A stretch of 64,000 nucleotides of DNA, from the NCBI GenBank assembly GCA_000802095.1, contig JUEB01000029.1, forward strand, positions 124,001 through 188,000, given 5' to 3'. Shown piece after piece: positions 8,283-44,690 of this stretch; the stretch's first letter is position 1, and every line of letters starts with the position of its first letter. The DNA comes from Peptococcaceae bacterium BICA1-7. Lineage in GTDB: Bacteria; Bacillota; Desulfotomaculia; Desulfotomaculales; Desulfocucumaceae. Made by a program: the position numbers and the translations under genes. A model generated the notes under the pieces. The model was not told the DNA's origin. It saw nothing but the letters and a program-made list of their open reading frames with translations, and searched no databases.

Positions 8283-8629
8283 TATTAAACATGTGGATAG
8301 GGGTTTGGCTGGCTGCCTTGGGGCTGGTGCTGGGTATAGCGCTGGGACTTAACCTGCCTTTTACGGTGCCTCAGGCGTATGCCAAGTATATGTCGGTGGC
8401 TGCCCTGGCGGCCATGGACTCGGTATTCGGGGGAATCAGGGCGGCCATGGAAGAGCACTATGACAACCGTATTTTTATCACCGGATTCTTCAGCAATGCT
8501 CTGCTGGCTGCCGGCCTGGCCTTTATCGGGGAGCGTCTGGGCATAGACCTGTATCTGGCAGCTGTGGTGGCTTTTGGCGTAAGACTGTTCCAGAACCTGG
8601 CCATAATAAGGAGACATTTGCTTAAATAA
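8279..8629 (+). CDS. sbp: Small basic protein Sbp (DUF1290)
   Basis: This is a 116-residue integral membrane protein with three hydrophobic segments (about residues 5-25, 35-52 and 75-105). It matches the Sbp/DUF1290 family through VPQAYAKYMSVAALAAMDSVFGG and the GVRLFQNLAIIRRH end. It is widespread between ftsQ and ftsA in Gram-positives; the role is uncharacterised. The ATG shares the ATGA of the upstream DUF881 stop. The stop is followed directly by the repeated regulatory-like element (8625-8746), so this is probably the last gene of the ftsQ group. Confidence 0.9.
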   Translation: MILNMWIGVWLAALGLVLGIALGLNLPFTVPQAYAKYMSVAALAAMDSVFGGIRAAMEEHYDNRIFITGFFSNALLAAGLAFIGERLGIDLYLAAVVAFGVRLFQNLAIIRRHLLK

Positions 8630-8746
8630 AAAAGCACCAATGGTGCTCGCCCTTCTCGAGTGCTGTCAGAGGAAGCTTTTTTGAAACGCTCTTAACGGAA
8701 AGTGGAAAACTTAAGGAGAACTATACTTCATAAGCGTTATAAAAAA
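8625..8746 (+). repeat. Conserved ~122-nt element, copy A (before ftsA-ftsZ)
   Basis: About 105 of 122 bases are identical to a second copy at 35745-35866. It starts at the sbp stop codon, and 109 bases separate it from the ftsA ATG. Paired segments: CTTC/GAAG (8652-8655 with 8672-8675) and AACGCT/AGCGTT (8685-8690 with 8733-8738). AGCAC (8633-8637) can pair with either of two GTGCT segments (8643-8647 or 8660-8664). The 3' end holds the small palindrome ATAAGCGTTAT (8730-8740). It lies sense to the division genes. I do not recognise it as a known RNA family; a regulatory RNA, a small RNA or a mobile element are all possible. Confidence 0.7.
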
Positions 8747-11317: not shown

Positions 11318-11505
11318 CAGTAGACAGGAGACGGGAATGTCCAGGGTATCACCGGTATGTCGATTACTAATGCTTATACTGAGGAATACGAATCACTTTA
11401 TATTGCCACAGAGATGGCGTAGCTTTAGCTTTATGTCAAAGCATATAAAACTCCTGTCTCCTGTCTCCCGTCTCCCGACCGGAGGTATTAACCTTAAGCA
11501 GGCTG
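11318..11505. repeat. Degenerate ~30-nt repeat units before spoIIGA
   Basis: In the 402-base gap ahead of spoIIGA, GGTCAGTAGACAGGAGACGGG (11318 on) and the oppositely oriented stretch at 11450-11500 (CTCCTGTCTCC..., then CTCCCGACCGGAGGTATTAA and CCTTAAGCAGG) are members of the intergenic repeat family described at 14543. No convincing gene lies in this gap; small open frames there have no ribosome site or conserved motif. Confidence 0.55.
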
Positions 11506-13317: not shown

Positions 13318-13425
13318 GCTTAAGGGCTATGACTTGGGGTCGGGAGACTGCTTAACGGTAATACTTTTGGTCAGGAGACAGGAGACTGCTCAAGGGTAAT
13401 ACTTCCGGTCGGGAGACAGGAGAAT
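13318..13425 (+). repeat. Tandem degenerate ~30-nt repeat units after sigE
   Basis: Three successive units begin GGTCGGGAG or GGTCAGGAG and continue CTGCTTAACGGTAATACTT or CTGCTCAAGGGTAATACTT. They lie directly downstream of sigE and have the same orientation as the first half of the array at 14543. Confidence 0.65.
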
Positions 13426-13539: not shown

Positions 13540-13625
13540 AACTCCTGTCTCCTGACCGGAGATACTACCCCCAAGCAGTCTCCTGACCCGGGATAATACT
13601 ATTGAGCAGTCTCCCGCCGTCTCCC
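13540..13625 (-). repeat. Degenerate ~30-nt repeat units, inverted orientation
   Basis: CTCCTGTCTCCTGACCGGAG, then ATACTACCCCCAAGCAG, then CTCCTGACCCGGGATAATAC and TATTGAGCAG are inverse-oriented units of the same family as 13318-13425. The two sets face each other across the sigE terminator and could form a long imperfect hairpin. The sigE-sigG gap (437 bases) otherwise holds two terminators and a sigG promoter. Confidence 0.6.
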
Positions 13626-14542: not shown

Positions 14543-14765
14543 GTCGGAGTAGCTAAGGGATAATACCTGTTGGCCGGAGGGGCTCACGGGCAGTACCTTT
14601 CGGTGGGAGGAGCTAAAGGGCAGTATCTTTCGGTCGGAGACCATCAGGAACTGCACTTCTACCCCCTCCGGCATACAGGGAATGCTCCTTTAGGCCCTCC
14701 GGCCATCCGGAAATACATCTCCGGCTACTCCGACCAACCGGAAATACTTTCTTAGCCCTCCGACA
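14543..14765. repeat. Array of ~30-nt repeats in two inverted halves (sigG-spoIIR gap)
   Basis: Four 30-base units run in one direction, each starting GTCGGAG, GCCGGAG or GTGGGAG and containing an AGCTAAGGG/AGCTAAAGGG core and a TACC-TTTCG end. They are followed by four units in the opposite sense (CTCCGGC or CTCCGACC start, GGAAATAC core, CTTAGCC end). Units are about 60-75% alike. The arrangement would make a long imperfect hairpin between sigG and spoIIR. It is the clearest example of a family also seen near 11450, 13318, 13540, 15523, 21164, 23372, 40890 and 44052. There are no identical repeats with distinct spacers, so it is not CRISPR. Confidence 0.75.
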
Positions 14766-21150: not shown

Positions 21151-21163
21151 ATTTTGCTTAAAG

Positions 21164-21195
21164 GTATTACCTCCGGTCGGAATACAGGAGTCAGA
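21164..21195 (+). repeat. Single ~30-nt family unit after nrdJ
   Basis: GCTTAAAGGTATTACCTCCG followed by GTCGGAATACAGGAG matches the intergenic ~30-nt family. An AGAATACAGAATTCAGAAT stretch follows, similar to one at 33136. The rest of the 285-base gap holds a hairpin repeat and a terminator; no gene is seen. Confidence 0.5.
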
Positions 21196-21320
21196 ATACA
21201 GAATTCAGAATGTGCAGGGCATTTCTGATATGTCTGCAAATGCTGAAAGATGCTGGATTGTTCTGGGAGTCTGCTTTCAAGGCTCTACATAAAGAATCTC
21301 AATTCCGCCGTCTATGCATC

Positions 21321-23371: not shown

Positions 23372-23508
23372 ACCTCTGGTCTCCCGACCCTCCGGGATGC
23401 ATCTCGGCTCCTCCGACCATCCGGAAATGCGTCTTCGGCCCCTCCGACAAATCAGGAATGCATCTTGGCGCCTCCGACCATCCGGGAATGCCTTATTAGC
23501 CTGTCAGG
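23372..23508 (-). repeat. Four tandem ~30-31-nt repeat units after the amidase gene
   Basis: Four consecutive units start CTCCCGACC or CCTCCGAC, contain CCGGAAATGC or CAGGAATGC, and end TCTTCGGC, TCTTGGC or TTATTAGCC. All face the same way and fill the gap between two convergent genes, overlapping the end of the small minus-strand gene by a few bases. Same family as 14543-14765. Confidence 0.72.
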
Positions 23509-35744: not shown

Positions 35745-35866
35745 AATAAAAAAGCACCAATGGCGCATGACTTCTCGAGTGCTGTCAGAGGAAGCTTTTT
35801 TGAAACGCTCTTAACGGAAAGTGGGAAACAGAGGAGAACTATACTTTCCTAAGCGTTATAAAAAAA
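35745..35866 (+). repeat. Conserved ~122-nt element, copy B (before the hlyD-like-ylmE-sepF genes)
   Basis: About 105 of 122 bases agree with copy A (8625-8746). Conserved pairings: CTTC (35771-35774) with GAAG, AACGCT with AGCGTT (ending at 35856), and AGCAC at the 5' end with GTGCT in the central loop; here the alternative local AGCACC hairpin is weakened (GGCGC instead of GGTGC). A terminator with a T7 run lies 18 bases downstream. It sits 97 bases after pstB and sense to the division-related genes. The combination suggests either a small RNA or an attenuator. Confidence 0.7.
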
Positions 35867-35883
35867 GTCAGTATTTTTTTGAA

Positions 35884-35909
35884 AACACCCTGTTTTGGGT
35901 GTTTTTTTC
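35884..35909 (+). terminator. Terminator just after element copy B
   Basis: AACACCC (35884-35890), TGTTTT loop, GGGTGTT (35897-35903), then T run. It is 68 bases before the HlyD-like start, where an attenuator would stand. Confidence 0.85.
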
Positions 35910-35976
35910 GCAGGAGATAGCGTATGGGCGTCGAATAAGCCTAGTTAACTATTATATCCAGGGAGTGGTATTTTTT

Positions 35977-36948
35977 ATGGGCCGGGCTTTGACTGAAAAT
36001 GGACGGCCCGCTAAAAAAGGCCGGCTGACGACAGCGATCAGGAAATTTGTACTGTTTGCCGCTGGAATGTCAATACTATACCTGGTGGCAGTGCAGGGAC
36101 TGCACTGGGCAGGGTTTAAAATGATAGAGACCAGTACCCTGGGCCGGGGGGAACTGAAAAAAATGTACCCTGCCGGGGGAATAATTATAAGAGATGAAAC
36201 GGTCATAACCGCACCTGCCGACGGTGAGCTGGTCATGCTGGTGGAGGAAGGGGACAGAGTCAGGGCCGGTGACAGCGTGGCCGAGATAAAAACAGCCGGC
36301 GCAGATCCTGGGGTGCCTGGGCTGTCAGCCCTGGTCAGTGCCACCAGGACCGGTGTGGTAAGCCTCGGGGTGGATGGTCTGGAAGGATTGCTTAAGCCCG
36401 GCCAGGCCGATATATTTGATGCCGCCAGGCTGCCGGAAAGCCCTACACGGATGAAGGGAGACGGCTCCCGGCAGCTAAAGTGCACTAAAGGGCAGCCTGT
36501 GCTGAAGATCATAGACAACCTGTCCCCACTGATGATATGTGTCAGGGTTCCCGGCGGGCTTCCCCCGGAGGCAAGTAAAAAGGGGGATGTGTTTATTGTC
36601 CGGGAAGGCAGGGAAACCTCCGGACGTATAGTGGAAGCGGGCAGCTATGACGGTGGGACACAGCTGGTGCTGGAAGTATCTAATTATTCGGAGGAATATT
36701 TGAGTGTAAGAAATATGTCCATGGAGCTGGTGGGGGAAAGGGTAAACGGGTTTATAGTTCCCTCGGACGCACTGGCGGTAAAGGATGGGGGCCAGGGGCT
36801 GTACCTGATGGACAGGGATGAGGCGCAGTGGGTTCCGGTTAAGGTAGATGGCGCGGTAGATGGCAGTTCAGCTGTTTCCGGGGCTGACCTTACACCCGGC
36901 GGCCGGTATGTCATAAATCCCCGCTGGCTTATATTTGCCGGAGACTGA
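35977..36948 (+). CDS. HlyD-like membrane-anchored adaptor protein
   Basis: The 323-residue protein has a short basic tail, one membrane segment (about residues 24-45), and an extracytoplasmic part with a biotinyl/lipoyl-like barrel (TAPADGELVMLVEEGDRVRAGD, quoted in part) and a beta-barrel region with VPSDALAVKDGGQGLYL. It resembles HlyD-family adaptors but is short, lacks a long coiled-coil hairpin and has no adjacent transporter. Such genes occur beside ylmE-sepF in Peptococcaceae, so a role at the envelope during division is possible. ATG 35977 is chosen because GGGAGTGG lies at 35961-35968; the open frame upstream runs into the terminator and repeat. Confidence 0.8.
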   Translation: MGRALTENGRPAKKGRLTTAIRKFVLFAAGMSILYLVAVQGLHWAGFKMIETSTLGRGELKKMYPAGGIIIRDETVITAPADGELVMLVEEGDRVRAGDSVAEIKTAGADPGVPGLSALVSATRTGVVSLGVDGLEGLLKPGQADIFDAARLPESPTRMKGDGSRQLKCTKGQPVLKIIDNLSPLMICVRVPGGLPPEASKKGDVFIVREGRETSGRIVEAGSYDGGTQLVLEVSNYSEEYLSVRNMSMELVGERVNGFIVPSDALAVKDGGQGLYLMDRDEAQWVPVKVDGAVDGSSAVSGADLTPGGRYVINPRWLIFAGD

Positions 36949-37643: not shown

Positions 37644-37647
37644 AATC

Positions 37648-37698
37648 GGGGACATTCCTCGGCAAACAAAGCCAAACATATCAGAGAGGTGTGTCCCC
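37648..37698. repeat. GGGGACA...TGTCCCC hairpin repeat, copy 2
   Basis: GGGGACATTCCTCGG faces CAGAGAGGTGTGTCCCC. It lies directly before the sepF ribosome site (37711), so it could affect sepF translation within the ylmE-sepF message. Confidence 0.7.
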
Positions 37699-37723
37699 AT
37701 ACCTTAGAGAGGAGGAATATATT

Positions 37724-40963: not shown

Positions 40964-41229
40964 TGTTATCAGCGAAAAAGCCTATGATCGGGAAGAGTAA
41001 GAAAAGAAGGCCTTTTAAAGAGAGTCCGGGGAGGTGTGATCCGGACAGGGCTCTTTTCCCAAAATCCCCCGGGAAGGCGCCCGCCGAAAGCGGATTTTCC
41101 GCCATAGACCGGGACGGCAGCCTCCGTTAAGGGCTCAAGAGCGGGTGAGGAAAATACTTTCCCTCATTCAATTGGGTGGTACCACGGGAGTATATCATAC
41201 CCGTCCCTTTACGGGGCGGGTTTTTATTT
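40964..41229 (+). ncRNA. T-box leader of ileS (isoleucine, AUC specifier)
   Basis: Stem I begins GATCGGGAAGAGTA (AGTA at 40996-40999), continues AGAGAGTCCGGGGAGGTGTG at the distal end, and holds CCCAAAATCCCC with ATC (41064-41066) as specifier. The antiterminator T-box sequence is TGGGTGGTACCACGGG (41173-41188). The terminator stem CCCGTCCC/GGGGCGGG (41200-41219) ends in a T run. Uncharged tRNA-Ile should favour read-through into ileS. Confidence 0.93.
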
Positions 41230-41271: not shown

Positions 41272-44052
41272 ATGGACTACGGAAAAACATTAAACCTTCC
41301 CAAAACCGATTTTCCCATGCGGGCCAATCTGCCTGAAAGGGAGCCGGAGATATTGAAATTCTGGGAGGAAATAGACATTTACAATGAGGTGGGCCGGCGC
41401 AATTCCGGCAAGCCAAAATTCATTCTGCATGACGGGCCGCCCTATGCCAACGGGCACATTCATCTGGGTCACACTCTTAACAAAGTGCTCAAGGACATTA
41501 TTGTAAAATACCATACCATGTCAGGCTATGACTCACCCTACGTGCCCGGCTGGGATACCCACGGCCTGCCCATTGAGCAGCAGGCTATAAAGGCCCTGGG
41601 GATAAACAGGCATGCTGTGCATCCGGTGGAATTCCGCAAAAAATGCAAGGACTACGCCCTTAAGTTTGTGGATATACAGAGGGAAGAATTCAAGCGGCTG
41701 GGGGTAAGGGGAGACTGGGAAAACCCCTATATGACCCTTATGCCTCATTTTGAGGCCTCCCAGATAGGTGTTTTCGGTGAAATGGCCAAGCGTGGCTATA
41801 TATACAAAGGCCTTAAACCGGTTTACTGGTGCTCTACCTGTGAGACTGCCCTGGCCGAGGCCGAGGTGGAGTATGGTGAGAAGCACTCCCCCTCCATACA
41901 CGTGCGCTTCCCTGTGGTAAACGGAAAAGGAGTGGTGCCGGAGGGTAACACCTACCTGGTGATCTGGACTACCACCCCCTGGACACTTATAGCCAATGTG
42001 GCCATCTGCCTGCACCCAGAGTTTGAATATGTGCTGGCCCGGTTCGGTGACGTATCCTACGTGGTGGCTAAGGGGCTCCTGGGTCAATTTATGGAAGCCA
42101 CAGGGCTTTCCGGCCCCGAGGTGGTTAAGGAAATGAAAGGTAAAGACCTGGAGGGGGTTGTCTGCCGGCACCCCTTCATAGACAGGGACTCTCTTGTTAT
42201 TCTGGGGGAACATGTAACCCTGGAGGCCGGGACGGGCTGTGTGCACACCGCACCGGGACACGGCCATGAGGACTTTATTGCGGGTAAGCAGTATAATCTC
42301 CCGGTAATCTCCCCGGTGGACGGAAAGGGTGTTTTCATCGAAGAGGCCGGGGAATTTGCCGGGCAGAATTACAATGAGGCCAATAAGGGAATTGTTGAAA
42401 AAATGTCGGCCGATGGAAGCCTGCTGGCCAGGAGCACCATTCAGCACCAGTATCCCCACTGCTGGCGCTGTAAAAAGCCGTTGTTTTTCCGGGCTACCGA
42501 GCAGTGGTTCGCCTCCATTGACGGCTTCAGGCAGGAGGCCCTGGACTCTATCAGGCAGGTAAAGTGGATACCGGCCTGGGGTGAGGACCGCATCCACAAC
42601 ATGGTGGCCAACCGGGGGGACTGGTGCATTTCCAGGCAGCGCACCTGGGGGGTGCCCATTCCCATATTCTACTGCGCCAAATGCGGGCAGCACATCATAA
42701 ATGATGAGACTATCACCCACCTGCAGGGTCTGTTTAAGGAGCATGGCTCCGACGTATGGTTTGCCAGGGAGGCCGGCGAGTTGGCTCCCCCAGGACTTAC
42801 GTGCCCGGAGTGCGGGTCTGATCAGTTTACCAAGGAAACCGATATAATGGACGTCTGGTTTGACAGCGGCACCAGCCACCTGGGTGTACTGGATCAACCT
42901 GAAATATGGCCCGGCCTGAGATGGCCGGCGGACCTTTACCTTGAGGGAAGCGATCAGCACCGGGGATGGTTTAACAGCTCCCTGTCCACCTCGGTGGCGG
43001 CGCGGGGCCAGGCCCCTTACAGGGCGGTGCTTACCCACGGCTTCCTGGTGGATGAACAGGGCCGGAAGATGAGCAAGTCTCTGGGCAATGTGGTGGACCC
43101 TCTGAAGGTTATTGCCCAGATGGGGGCAGACATACTGAGATTATGGGTGAGCAGCTCGGACTATCGCAGTGACCTGGCCGCCTCTCCGGCTATAATGAAG
43201 CAGATGACCGAGTCTTACCGCAAAATAAGAAACACCTGCCGCTTTCTGGTGGGTAATCTTTACGACTATAACCCAGGGACCGACAGTGTGGACTACCGGG
43301 ATATGCCTGAGATAGACCGCTGGGCCCTGTTGAGACTGCAGAAGGTGGTGGAGAGGGTCCTGGCGGGCTACCGGGACTATGAGTACCATGTGGTTTACCA
43401 CGCCATCCATAACTTCTGCACGGTAGACATGAGCTCCCTTTACCTGGATATTATAAAGGACCGGCTCTACACCGCCGCCCCCTCCTCCAGGGAAAGAAGG
43501 GCGGCCCAGACGGTTATGCACGAGGTGCTGGGGGCACTGGTGCGGCTGCTGGCGCCGGTGCTGGCCTTCACCAGCGAGGAGATCTGGAGATATATTCCCT
43601 ACAGCGGCGATAAGCCGGCCAGCGTCCAGCTGAGCGATATGCCCGAGGTTAAGGGCCAGTATATTGACCCGGACCTGGAAAAGAAATGGGACCGCCTCCT
43701 GGAATTAAGGGCGGTGGTTACAAGGGCACTCGAGGCTGCCAGAAGGGATAAAATAATAGGCAACTCCCTGGAGGCTGTAACAGAGCTCTATGCTTCAGGG
43801 GATGTGTACAGTTTCCTGGAGTCCTTCGGGGATGAGATGGCCACCCTTTTTATTGTATCGGCCGTGGCGCTGAAGAAGGGGGACCCCCCCGCCGGGGCAG
43901 CCTCTAACGAAGATATTCCCGGCTTCGGGGTGATTGTTGGGAGAGCGTCGGGAAGCAAGTGTGAGCGGTGCTGGAACTATCATGAGGGAGTGGGCCTGGA
44001 CTCCGAACACCCCACCCTTTGCCCCCGCTGCGCGGAAGTGGTTAAGGGCTGA
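41272..44052 (+). CDS. ileS: Isoleucyl-tRNA synthetase IleS
   Basis: IleS charges tRNA-Ile. The 926-residue class I synthetase has the HIGH motif in YANGHIHLGHTLNK near residue 60, the CP1 editing domain with TTTPWTLIANVA and GTGCVHTAPGHGHEDF, and WCISRQRTWGVPIP. The KMSKS loop is GRKMSKSLGNVVDP near residue 603. It ends with a zinc-binding CERCWNY...CPRC segment. This is the long bacterial form (IleS1 type), with the C-terminal zinc domain. ATG 41272 has AGGGGG upstream. Expression is controlled by the T-box leader. Confidence 0.99.
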   Translation: MDYGKTLNLPKTDFPMRANLPEREPEILKFWEEIDIYNEVGRRNSGKPKFILHDGPPYANGHIHLGHTLNKVLKDIIVKYHTMSGYDSPYVPGWDTHGLPIEQQAIKALGINRHAVHPVEFRKKCKDYALKFVDIQREEFKRLGVRGDWENPYMTLMPHFEASQIGVFGEMAKRGYIYKGLKPVYWCSTCETALAEAEVEYGEKHSPSIHVRFPVVNGKGVVPEGNTYLVIWTTTPWTLIANVAICLHPEFEYVLARFGDVSYVVAKGLLGQFMEATGLSGPEVVKEMKGKDLEGVVCRHPFIDRDSLVILGEHVTLEAGTGCVHTAPGHGHEDFIAGKQYNLPVISPVDGKGVFIEEAGEFAGQNYNEANKGIVEKMSADGSLLARSTIQHQYPHCWRCKKPLFFRATEQWFASIDGFRQEALDSIRQVKWIPAWGEDRIHNMVANRGDWCISRQRTWGVPIPIFYCAKCGQHIINDETITHLQGLFKEHGSDVWFAREAGELAPPGLTCPECGSDQFTKETDIMDVWFDSGTSHLGVLDQPEIWPGLRWPADLYLEGSDQHRGWFNSSLSTSVAARGQAPYRAVLTHGFLVDEQGRKMSKSLGNVVDPLKVIAQMGADILRLWVSSSDYRSDLAASPAIMKQMTESYRKIRNTCRFLVGNLYDYNPGTDSVDYRDMPEIDRWALLRLQKVVERVLAGYRDYEYHVVYHAIHNFCTVDMSSLYLDIIKDRLYTAAPSSRERRAAQTVMHEVLGALVRLLAPVLAFTSEEIWRYIPYSGDKPASVQLSDMPEVKGQYIDPDLEKKWDRLLELRAVVTRALEAARRDKIIGNSLEAVTELYASGDVYSFLESFGDEMATLFIVSAVALKKGDPPAGAASNEDIPGFGVIVGRASGSKCERCWNYHEGVGLDSEHPTLCPRCAEVVKG

Positions 44053-44055
44053 GAT

Positions 44056-44220
44056 GCATTTCCGGATGGTCGGAGAGGCCGAAGATGTATTCCCGATTGG
44101 TCGGAGACAGGAGGTTTTTAACCTTCAAGATCTCCGACCTAAGGTAATACCCTTTAGTTCCTCCGACCGGTAGGGACTACCCGTATGCGCCTCCGACCAA
44201 AAGGCACTGCCCTTGAGCGA
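44056..44220. repeat. ~30-nt repeat array in two inverted halves after ileS
   Basis: Two units in one direction (GCATTTCCGGATGGTCGGAG; GAAGATGTATTCCCGATTGG with TCGGAG) face three in the other (CTCCGACCTAAGGTAATACC; CTCCGACCGGTAGGGACTAC; CTCCGACCAAAAGGCACTGC). The last units have 30-base periods. It lies between the convergent ileS and SASP genes and may stop transcription from both sides. Confidence 0.72.
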
Positions 44221-44391: not shown

Positions 44392-44632
44392 AAAATCACC
44401 CTTTCTAAATTGGTATGCAAAAGTTATTTTACCCCGGTTTTACCGCATATAAAAAAGGAGACCTATAAAAGGCTCCCTTTTGCCCAATACAGCAATAAAA
44501 CAACTTGCCGTCCGGTGTATGCCTAAAATCTCTATTTCTTAAGCTGAATCTGCAGACATTGCTGTGGACATTCCTCCGGCCTTGAAAGTGCCGGAATTAG
44601 GAATTGGGGGAAGGTCAAAAGCCATCCCGAAC

Positions 44633-44683
44633 GGGGACATTCCTCCGACCTTCAAAGCCATCACATCAGGGAGGTGTGTCCCC
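44633..44683. repeat. GGGGACA...TGTCCCC hairpin repeat, copy 3
   Basis: GGGGACATTCCTCCGACC faces GGGAGGTGTGTCCCC. A partial arm (GGACATTCCTCCGGCC) lies about 65 bases upstream at 44567. The 299-base gap between the SASP and cotE genes otherwise shows only a weak hairpin near 44450. Confidence 0.68.
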
Positions 44684-44690
44684 ATTCCCC

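Follow-up and report, generated by a model that had tools for sequence, protein, structure and literature searches.

A small, probably mobile non-coding repeat beside ftsA and near sepF in Peptococcaceae bacterium BICA1-7

Two copies of a non-coding element and their surroundings

The 64,000-nucleotide stretch of Peptococcaceae bacterium BICA1-7 DNA analysed here (the window) contains two copies of a short element that encodes nothing, as the initial annotation had stated. Copy 1 (8626–8746) is located between a DUF1290 gene and ftsA, and copy 2 (35746–35865) is located between pstB and the pstB terminator; both are assigned to the minus strand, the strand on which the element ends in a terminator-like hairpin. 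A global alignment of the two copies (120 vs 119 nt) gave 109 identities in 121 columns, where about 105 of 122 bases had been estimated before, with 98% identity across a 59-nt core. The covariance model of the family scores them at 134.7 and 140.5 bits, and their similarity is far above chance.

Pfam matches around copy 1 (DUF1290, FtsA, FtsZ) and around copy 2 (an ABC ATPase that is PstB-like by sequence, HlyD_2, the YlmE-like Ala_racemase_N, and SepF) bear out the earlier names of the FtsA, FtsZ, HlyD-like, YlmE-like and SepF genes, but not the idea that copy 2 forms a sepF leader. The intrinsic terminator of pstB (35880–35908, plus strand, -13.8 kcal/mol), the sequence of which is identical in a relative without the element, lies 3' of copy 2 and 5' of the hlyD-like gene. 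Copy 2 thus sits in the 3' untranslated region of pstB, outside the hlyD-ylmE-sepF leader. The open reading frame listed as 35821–36948 runs into copy 2, and the start of the hlyD-like gene is more likely the ATG at 35977.

The element consists of about 113 nt plus one 8-nt ATAAAAAA (TTTTTTAT on the opposite strand). On the strand opposite to that originally noted, its parts follow in the order TTTTTTAT, hairpin 3, CAAAAAAG, hairpin 2, hairpin 1 and TTTTTTAT. The two ATAAAAAA direct repeats of copy 1 occupy 8626–8633 and 8739–8746, as identified from the sequence itself and from a single A-rich tract at the empty sites described below; the DUF1290 gene ends at 8629, with its stop codon (TAA) inside the left repeat. 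The direct repeats of copy 2, read from the sequence, occupy 35746–35753 and 35858–35865, the latter corresponding to a single ATAAAAAAAGTCAGT in a relative.

Hairpin 1 of copy 1 (GCACC-ATT-GGTGC; 8634–8646, minus strand, -9.1 kcal/mol) is followed by TTTTTTAT, and in both window copies the terminator scan reports hairpin 1 and the T-run as terminator-like. Hairpin 2 with its CTTTTTT (8652–8682, plus strand, -5.1 kcal/mol) is weakly terminator-like and was missed by that scan. Hairpin 3 (8685–8738) combines an outer stem, AACGCT...AGCGTT, which is the long-range pairing proposed before (8685–8690 with 8733–8738), with an inner stem, GGAAAGT...ACTTTCC, that is imperfect in copy 1. Its loop carries AGGAGAAC (GTTCTCCT on the minus strand), which 18 of 22 copies match exactly; GAGAAC is present in all 22.

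Several other features were observed in the window. A T-box leader (Rfam RF00230, 100.6 bits) at 40975–41211 lies 5' of a 926-aa open reading frame (41272–44052). Separate dispersed repeats occur in both orientations, one CTCCGACCATCCGGAAATGCATCTTCGG-like (14696–14764, 23410–23478, 14666–14721 and 44051–44106) and one CTCCTGTCTCCTGACCGGAGGTATTACC-like (11454–11504, 13337–13423, 13542–13589 and 21155–21201); the CTCCTGTCTCCTGACCGGAGGTATTACC-like motif also flanks a decayed half copy of the element elsewhere in the genome (L019). A pair of repeats with GGGGACA...TGTCCCC ends (37647–37703 and 44632–44688) shows 75% identity.

Copy number, distribution and empty sites

A DNA search of the source genome (4.75 Mb in 33 contigs) identified 17 full copies and two partial ones, namely a tandem partial copy (L018), joined to a full copy (L006) through a common ATAAAAAA, and the decayed half copy. 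The covariance model recovers exactly these 19 places and none further. The full copies share a mean pairwise identity of 87% (range 80–95%) and are dispersed over both strands in intergenic sequence; in the orientation originally noted, the left A-tract often coincides in part with a stop codon or comes immediately after one. Neighbours include valS, folC, asnS, an aminotransferase gene, rnj, pstB, a fur-like gene, and spore-coat, CoA ligase and transport genes (named by reading translations, with the profile search confined to window genes), and they show no functional theme. The initial annotation had said that many copies at random positions in both orientations would point to a mobile repeat instead of a division-linked RNA; the genome-wide count revealed many copies, in either orientation and beside unrelated genes.

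Across 113 genomes of the order, the covariance model matched within the genus (three genomes) and in G019, a member of another family of the same order that carries a diverged version (two matches; 61 bits), and a single doubtful match in G084 did not recur. The search at class level comprised 113 genomes as well, under the identifiers of the order-level set, so that little was gained by it. An exact-pattern scan of the genome collection returned only two relatives of the same genus, Peptococcaceae bacterium BRH_c4a (G001) and a metagenome assembly labelled 'Actinobacteria bacterium FK_Sedi_B_Bin.80' (G002). The element was absent from plasmid and phage records searched by distant BLAST and from viral contigs searched by exact pattern only.

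Two side observations concern individual copies. At L016 (1501–2175) the right end is altered and an open reading frame resembling an IS110-type transposase starts next to it, where the contig ends; this copy may have been hit by an insertion sequence. Older copies in G001 and G002 (L034, L035, L036 and L038) lie beside or within another repeat (TTAGCCACAGAG...CTCTGTGGCTAA).

The orthologous loci of G001 and G002, found with chimeric protein queries, enabled us to compare filled with empty sites. At the ftsA locus, where the flanks align to those of G002 with 90% and 87% identity, G002 reads CATTTACTAAAAAAATAAATTT and G001 reads CATTTGTTAAAAAAATAAAT in place of the element. At the pstB-hlyD locus, G002 reads GCTGCAAAAGCATAAAAAAAGTCAGT, where the window reads GTAAAATAATAAAAAA, the element and ATAAAAAAAGTCAGT. 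The repeated association with ftsA and sepF that the initial annotation had named as possible support is not seen in these relatives: the ftsA locus is element-free in both and the pstB-hlyD locus in one. The valS-folC, asnS and rnj sites of G002 also lack the element. Two further loci lack it as well (L014 against G002 and L011 against G001), but their sequence is too diverged for a clean junction. In the reciprocal case, G002 carries a copy between gyrA and a 16S rRNA gene where the source genome reads GAGGAGTAATAAAAAGGTTTATAAATAC, the bare tract downstream of gyrA being GTAATAAAAAGGTTT / GAGTAATAAAAAGGTTT. Presence and absence in both directions indicate that the element moved independently in both lineages.

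An empty site is a single A-rich tract, and a filled site has a ATAAAAAA-like tract at each side. Thus TTTTTTAT flanks the element on both sides and occurs once in the empty site, which fits a target duplication and an element-borne copy alike. We put at roughly 87% the probability that the element is a small non-coding, non-autonomous mobile repeat whose copies beside ftsA and near sepF are incidental. The initial annotation had offered as one option a MITE that landed twice; it was right about a mobile repeat, but there are 17 full copies and they lack terminal inverted repeats. The element's ends (AAAAAAGCACC... and ...GCGTTATAAAAAA) have hairpins near them and differ from each other; since they are not mutual inverted repeats, we rejected a classical MITE moved by a DDE transposase.

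Landing sites and possible routes of movement

Of the 22 copies examined, 11 have a hairpin of -12 kcal/mol or lower that starts no more than 10 nt from the right A-tract, compared with 1 of 22 on the left flank and 43 of 332 control A-runs in the window (13%). This enrichment is significant by Fisher's test against both the control A-runs (p = 7e-5) and the left side (p = 8e-4). Read on the opposite strand, such sites consist of a terminator hairpin, then TTTTTTAT, then the element. The preference is not absolute: some copies have no hairpin beside them, and in neither window copy does one sit at the exact junction; copy 2 lies about 14 nt ahead of the pstB terminator. The element's own end is hairpin 1 plus TTTTTTAT and therefore resembles the preferred target. 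Insertion into a terminator would, by this mimicry, leave a terminator-like structure behind, and every copy could become a new target.

For the movement itself, a recombinase or transposase acting in trans would recognise the hairpins near the element ends and would join the element 3' of a T-rich motif (TTTAT) where the DNA is exposed or single-stranded. The joining step can be modelled on IS200/IS605-type elements and their transposase-free derivatives, the PATEs. PATEs lack terminal inverted repeats, have palindromes near both ends and are too short for a transposase, and strain-specific PATE insertions are seen even where almost every IS200-type transposase is disrupted (PMC3119063). The related group A IStrons, which contain IS200/IS605 components, insert after the T-rich motifs TTGAT, ATTAT or TTTAT (PMC4227781). 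Within the mobile-element explanation, single-strand transposition of the IS200/IS605 type would be the likeliest analogy, at somewhat less than even odds, and is favoured by the hairpins near both ends, the lack of terminal inverted repeats and insertion after TTTAT. Rather unlikely, in our estimate, is a minimal element whose end imitates its target, an intrinsic terminator, with each insertion restoring a terminator-like end and each copy offering a further landing site, and whose mover may be a new or undescribed enzyme or its own terminated RNA.

No transposase gene bounded by the element's ends was found in this genome or the relatives examined. The five Y1 transposase matches (PF01797) of the source genome look RAYT-like, as do those of three relatives, with lengths of about 270–290 aa where intact (four genomes), and the covariance model gave no element match above noise near the Y1 transposase genes. 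These enzymes were rejected as mobilisers, as the flanks read in the source genome and G002 carry GGTTAACCGGTACC-type palindromes and not element ends. A REP/RAYT element was likewise rejected, since no palindrome is common to the element and the RAYT gene flanks read in these two genomes. The RAYT-like Y1 genes at L039, L040, L042 and L155, several with GTTAACCGGTACC/GGTACC-type flanking palindromes, apparently have REP-like repeats of their own.

A variant of the mobile-repeat reading with a different enzyme is retro-insertion by target-primed reverse transcription, in which a transcript with hairpin 1 and the U-run would base-pair with an A-tract at a nicked site, after which a group II intron reverse transcriptase would copy it into DNA. 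The plus-strand A-tract could prime on the U-tail, the right ends adjoin terminators, and the genome contains two group II introns, one of which begins a few bases after a hairpin and T-run. However, no group II intron parts were detected in the element, the junctions of the introns examined differ, and the copies are mostly full-length, whereas reverse transcription often yields 5' truncations. We regard this route as improbable. The two introns, the only ones in the source genome, were also rejected as mobilisers, as neither their sequence nor their junction matches it.

RNA structure and comparison with known repeats

Over 22 copies, 87.5% of the cells of the named structure are paired, compared with 86.8% in shuffles, and the covariation score of 0.079 (0.069 shuffled) is reached by 35 of 500 shuffles. 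These values near shuffle level indicate that the copies decay with little sign of compensation, and pair changes within the genus lend little covariation support to a division RNA. Hairpins 3 and 1 are not equally preserved, with about 95% of cells paired in hairpin 3 and 74% in hairpin 1, which has decayed in many copies. When an extra G001 copy and the diverged G019 copy are included, paired cells and covariation score exceed all shuffles, although the enlarged alignment was built to fit the structure of the model, which biases the count towards that structure. In hairpin 3 the gain comes from two pairs that are double-changed between lineages (GC to AU and CG to UA). Hairpin 3 is probably kept in active lineages, a pattern that would fit recognition by a protein or production of an RNA. 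The consensus fold is also more stable than shuffles on either strand (z about -2.5).

The by-eye comparison of the initial annotation, which had seen no match to the riboswitch cores it considered, agrees with the Rfam scan of the window and the element, in which nothing at the element exceeded the gathering score; the best sub-threshold match, to a tracrRNA (E 0.35), was taken as chance. Of the two partners proposed for AGCAC, the alternative GTGCT is present in both window copies but in no other of the 17 full copies, so the suggested switch is no property of the family.

A dispersed family of small-RNA genes would make an approximately 115-nt minus-strand RNA ended by hairpin 1 and the U-run, whose C-rich (UUCUCC) loop could pair with ribosome-binding sites. 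The preserved AGGAGAAC loop, the terminator-like character of hairpin 1 with its T-run on the minus strand, and the two hairpin 3 pairs retained through double changes are consistent with such a function. Neither window copy contains a promoter-like site, however, the minus-strand upstream flanks are often the terminators of other genes, hairpin 1 itself is decayed in many copies, and the precise presence and absence indicate mobility regardless of any RNA role. We consider a small-RNA family doubtful as the explanation, on a par with retro-insertion, though small-RNA function and mobility may coexist. The division-linked idea, a cis-regulatory RNA (riboswitch or attenuator) common to division operons, draws on the copies upstream of ftsA-ftsZ and, more distantly, of hlyD-ylmE-sepF, on the well-formed hairpin 3 and on the stable fold, and it is hardly credible against the precise absence at the division loci of relatives, the many remaining copies on both strands by unrelated genes, the position of copy 2 upstream of the pstB terminator, the alternative partner confined to two copies and the covariation of the genus set at or near shuffle level.

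As a mobile repeat, the element can be compared with several known systems. The bcr1-type repeats of the Bacillus cereus group are non-coding and intergenic and frequently lie within untranslated regions (PMC3446304), and bcr1 is clade-restricted, with TTTAT motifs (PMC6542083). Likened by description, the element is close to bcr1 in behaviour as a clade-limited non-coding intergenic repeat, but the hosts differ. With PATEs and other IS605-derived elements it shares the lack of terminal inverted repeats, the palindromes near the ends and the absence of a transposase gene. In contrast to them, no IS200/IS605 transposon with its ends was found, and its target has a longer T-tract, often flanking a hairpin. 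YPAL/RU-2 of Yersinia, which inserts in or beside dyad-symmetric sites and for which empty and filled sites are known (PMC2229807), is similarly a small mobile repeat with internal inverted repeats, but it is about 168 bp long, is not A+T-rich and makes variable target duplications (3–26 bp). SPRITE of Streptococcus pneumoniae, a dispersed repeat like a rho-independent terminator (PMC10969869), resembles the element by description and belongs to another host.

The closest kinds are bcr1-type repeats and IS605-related PATEs, and we class the element as a new family of this general kind and as a member of none of the repeat families compared here. This mobile repeat family in Peptococcaceae-like bacteria is apparently undescribed. 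With this analysis a tempting but false riboswitch candidate for the division genes drops out and the repeat family is documented at filled and empty sites, and the resemblance between its end and its target provides a simple, testable idea of how such a repeat may spread near genes at little cost.
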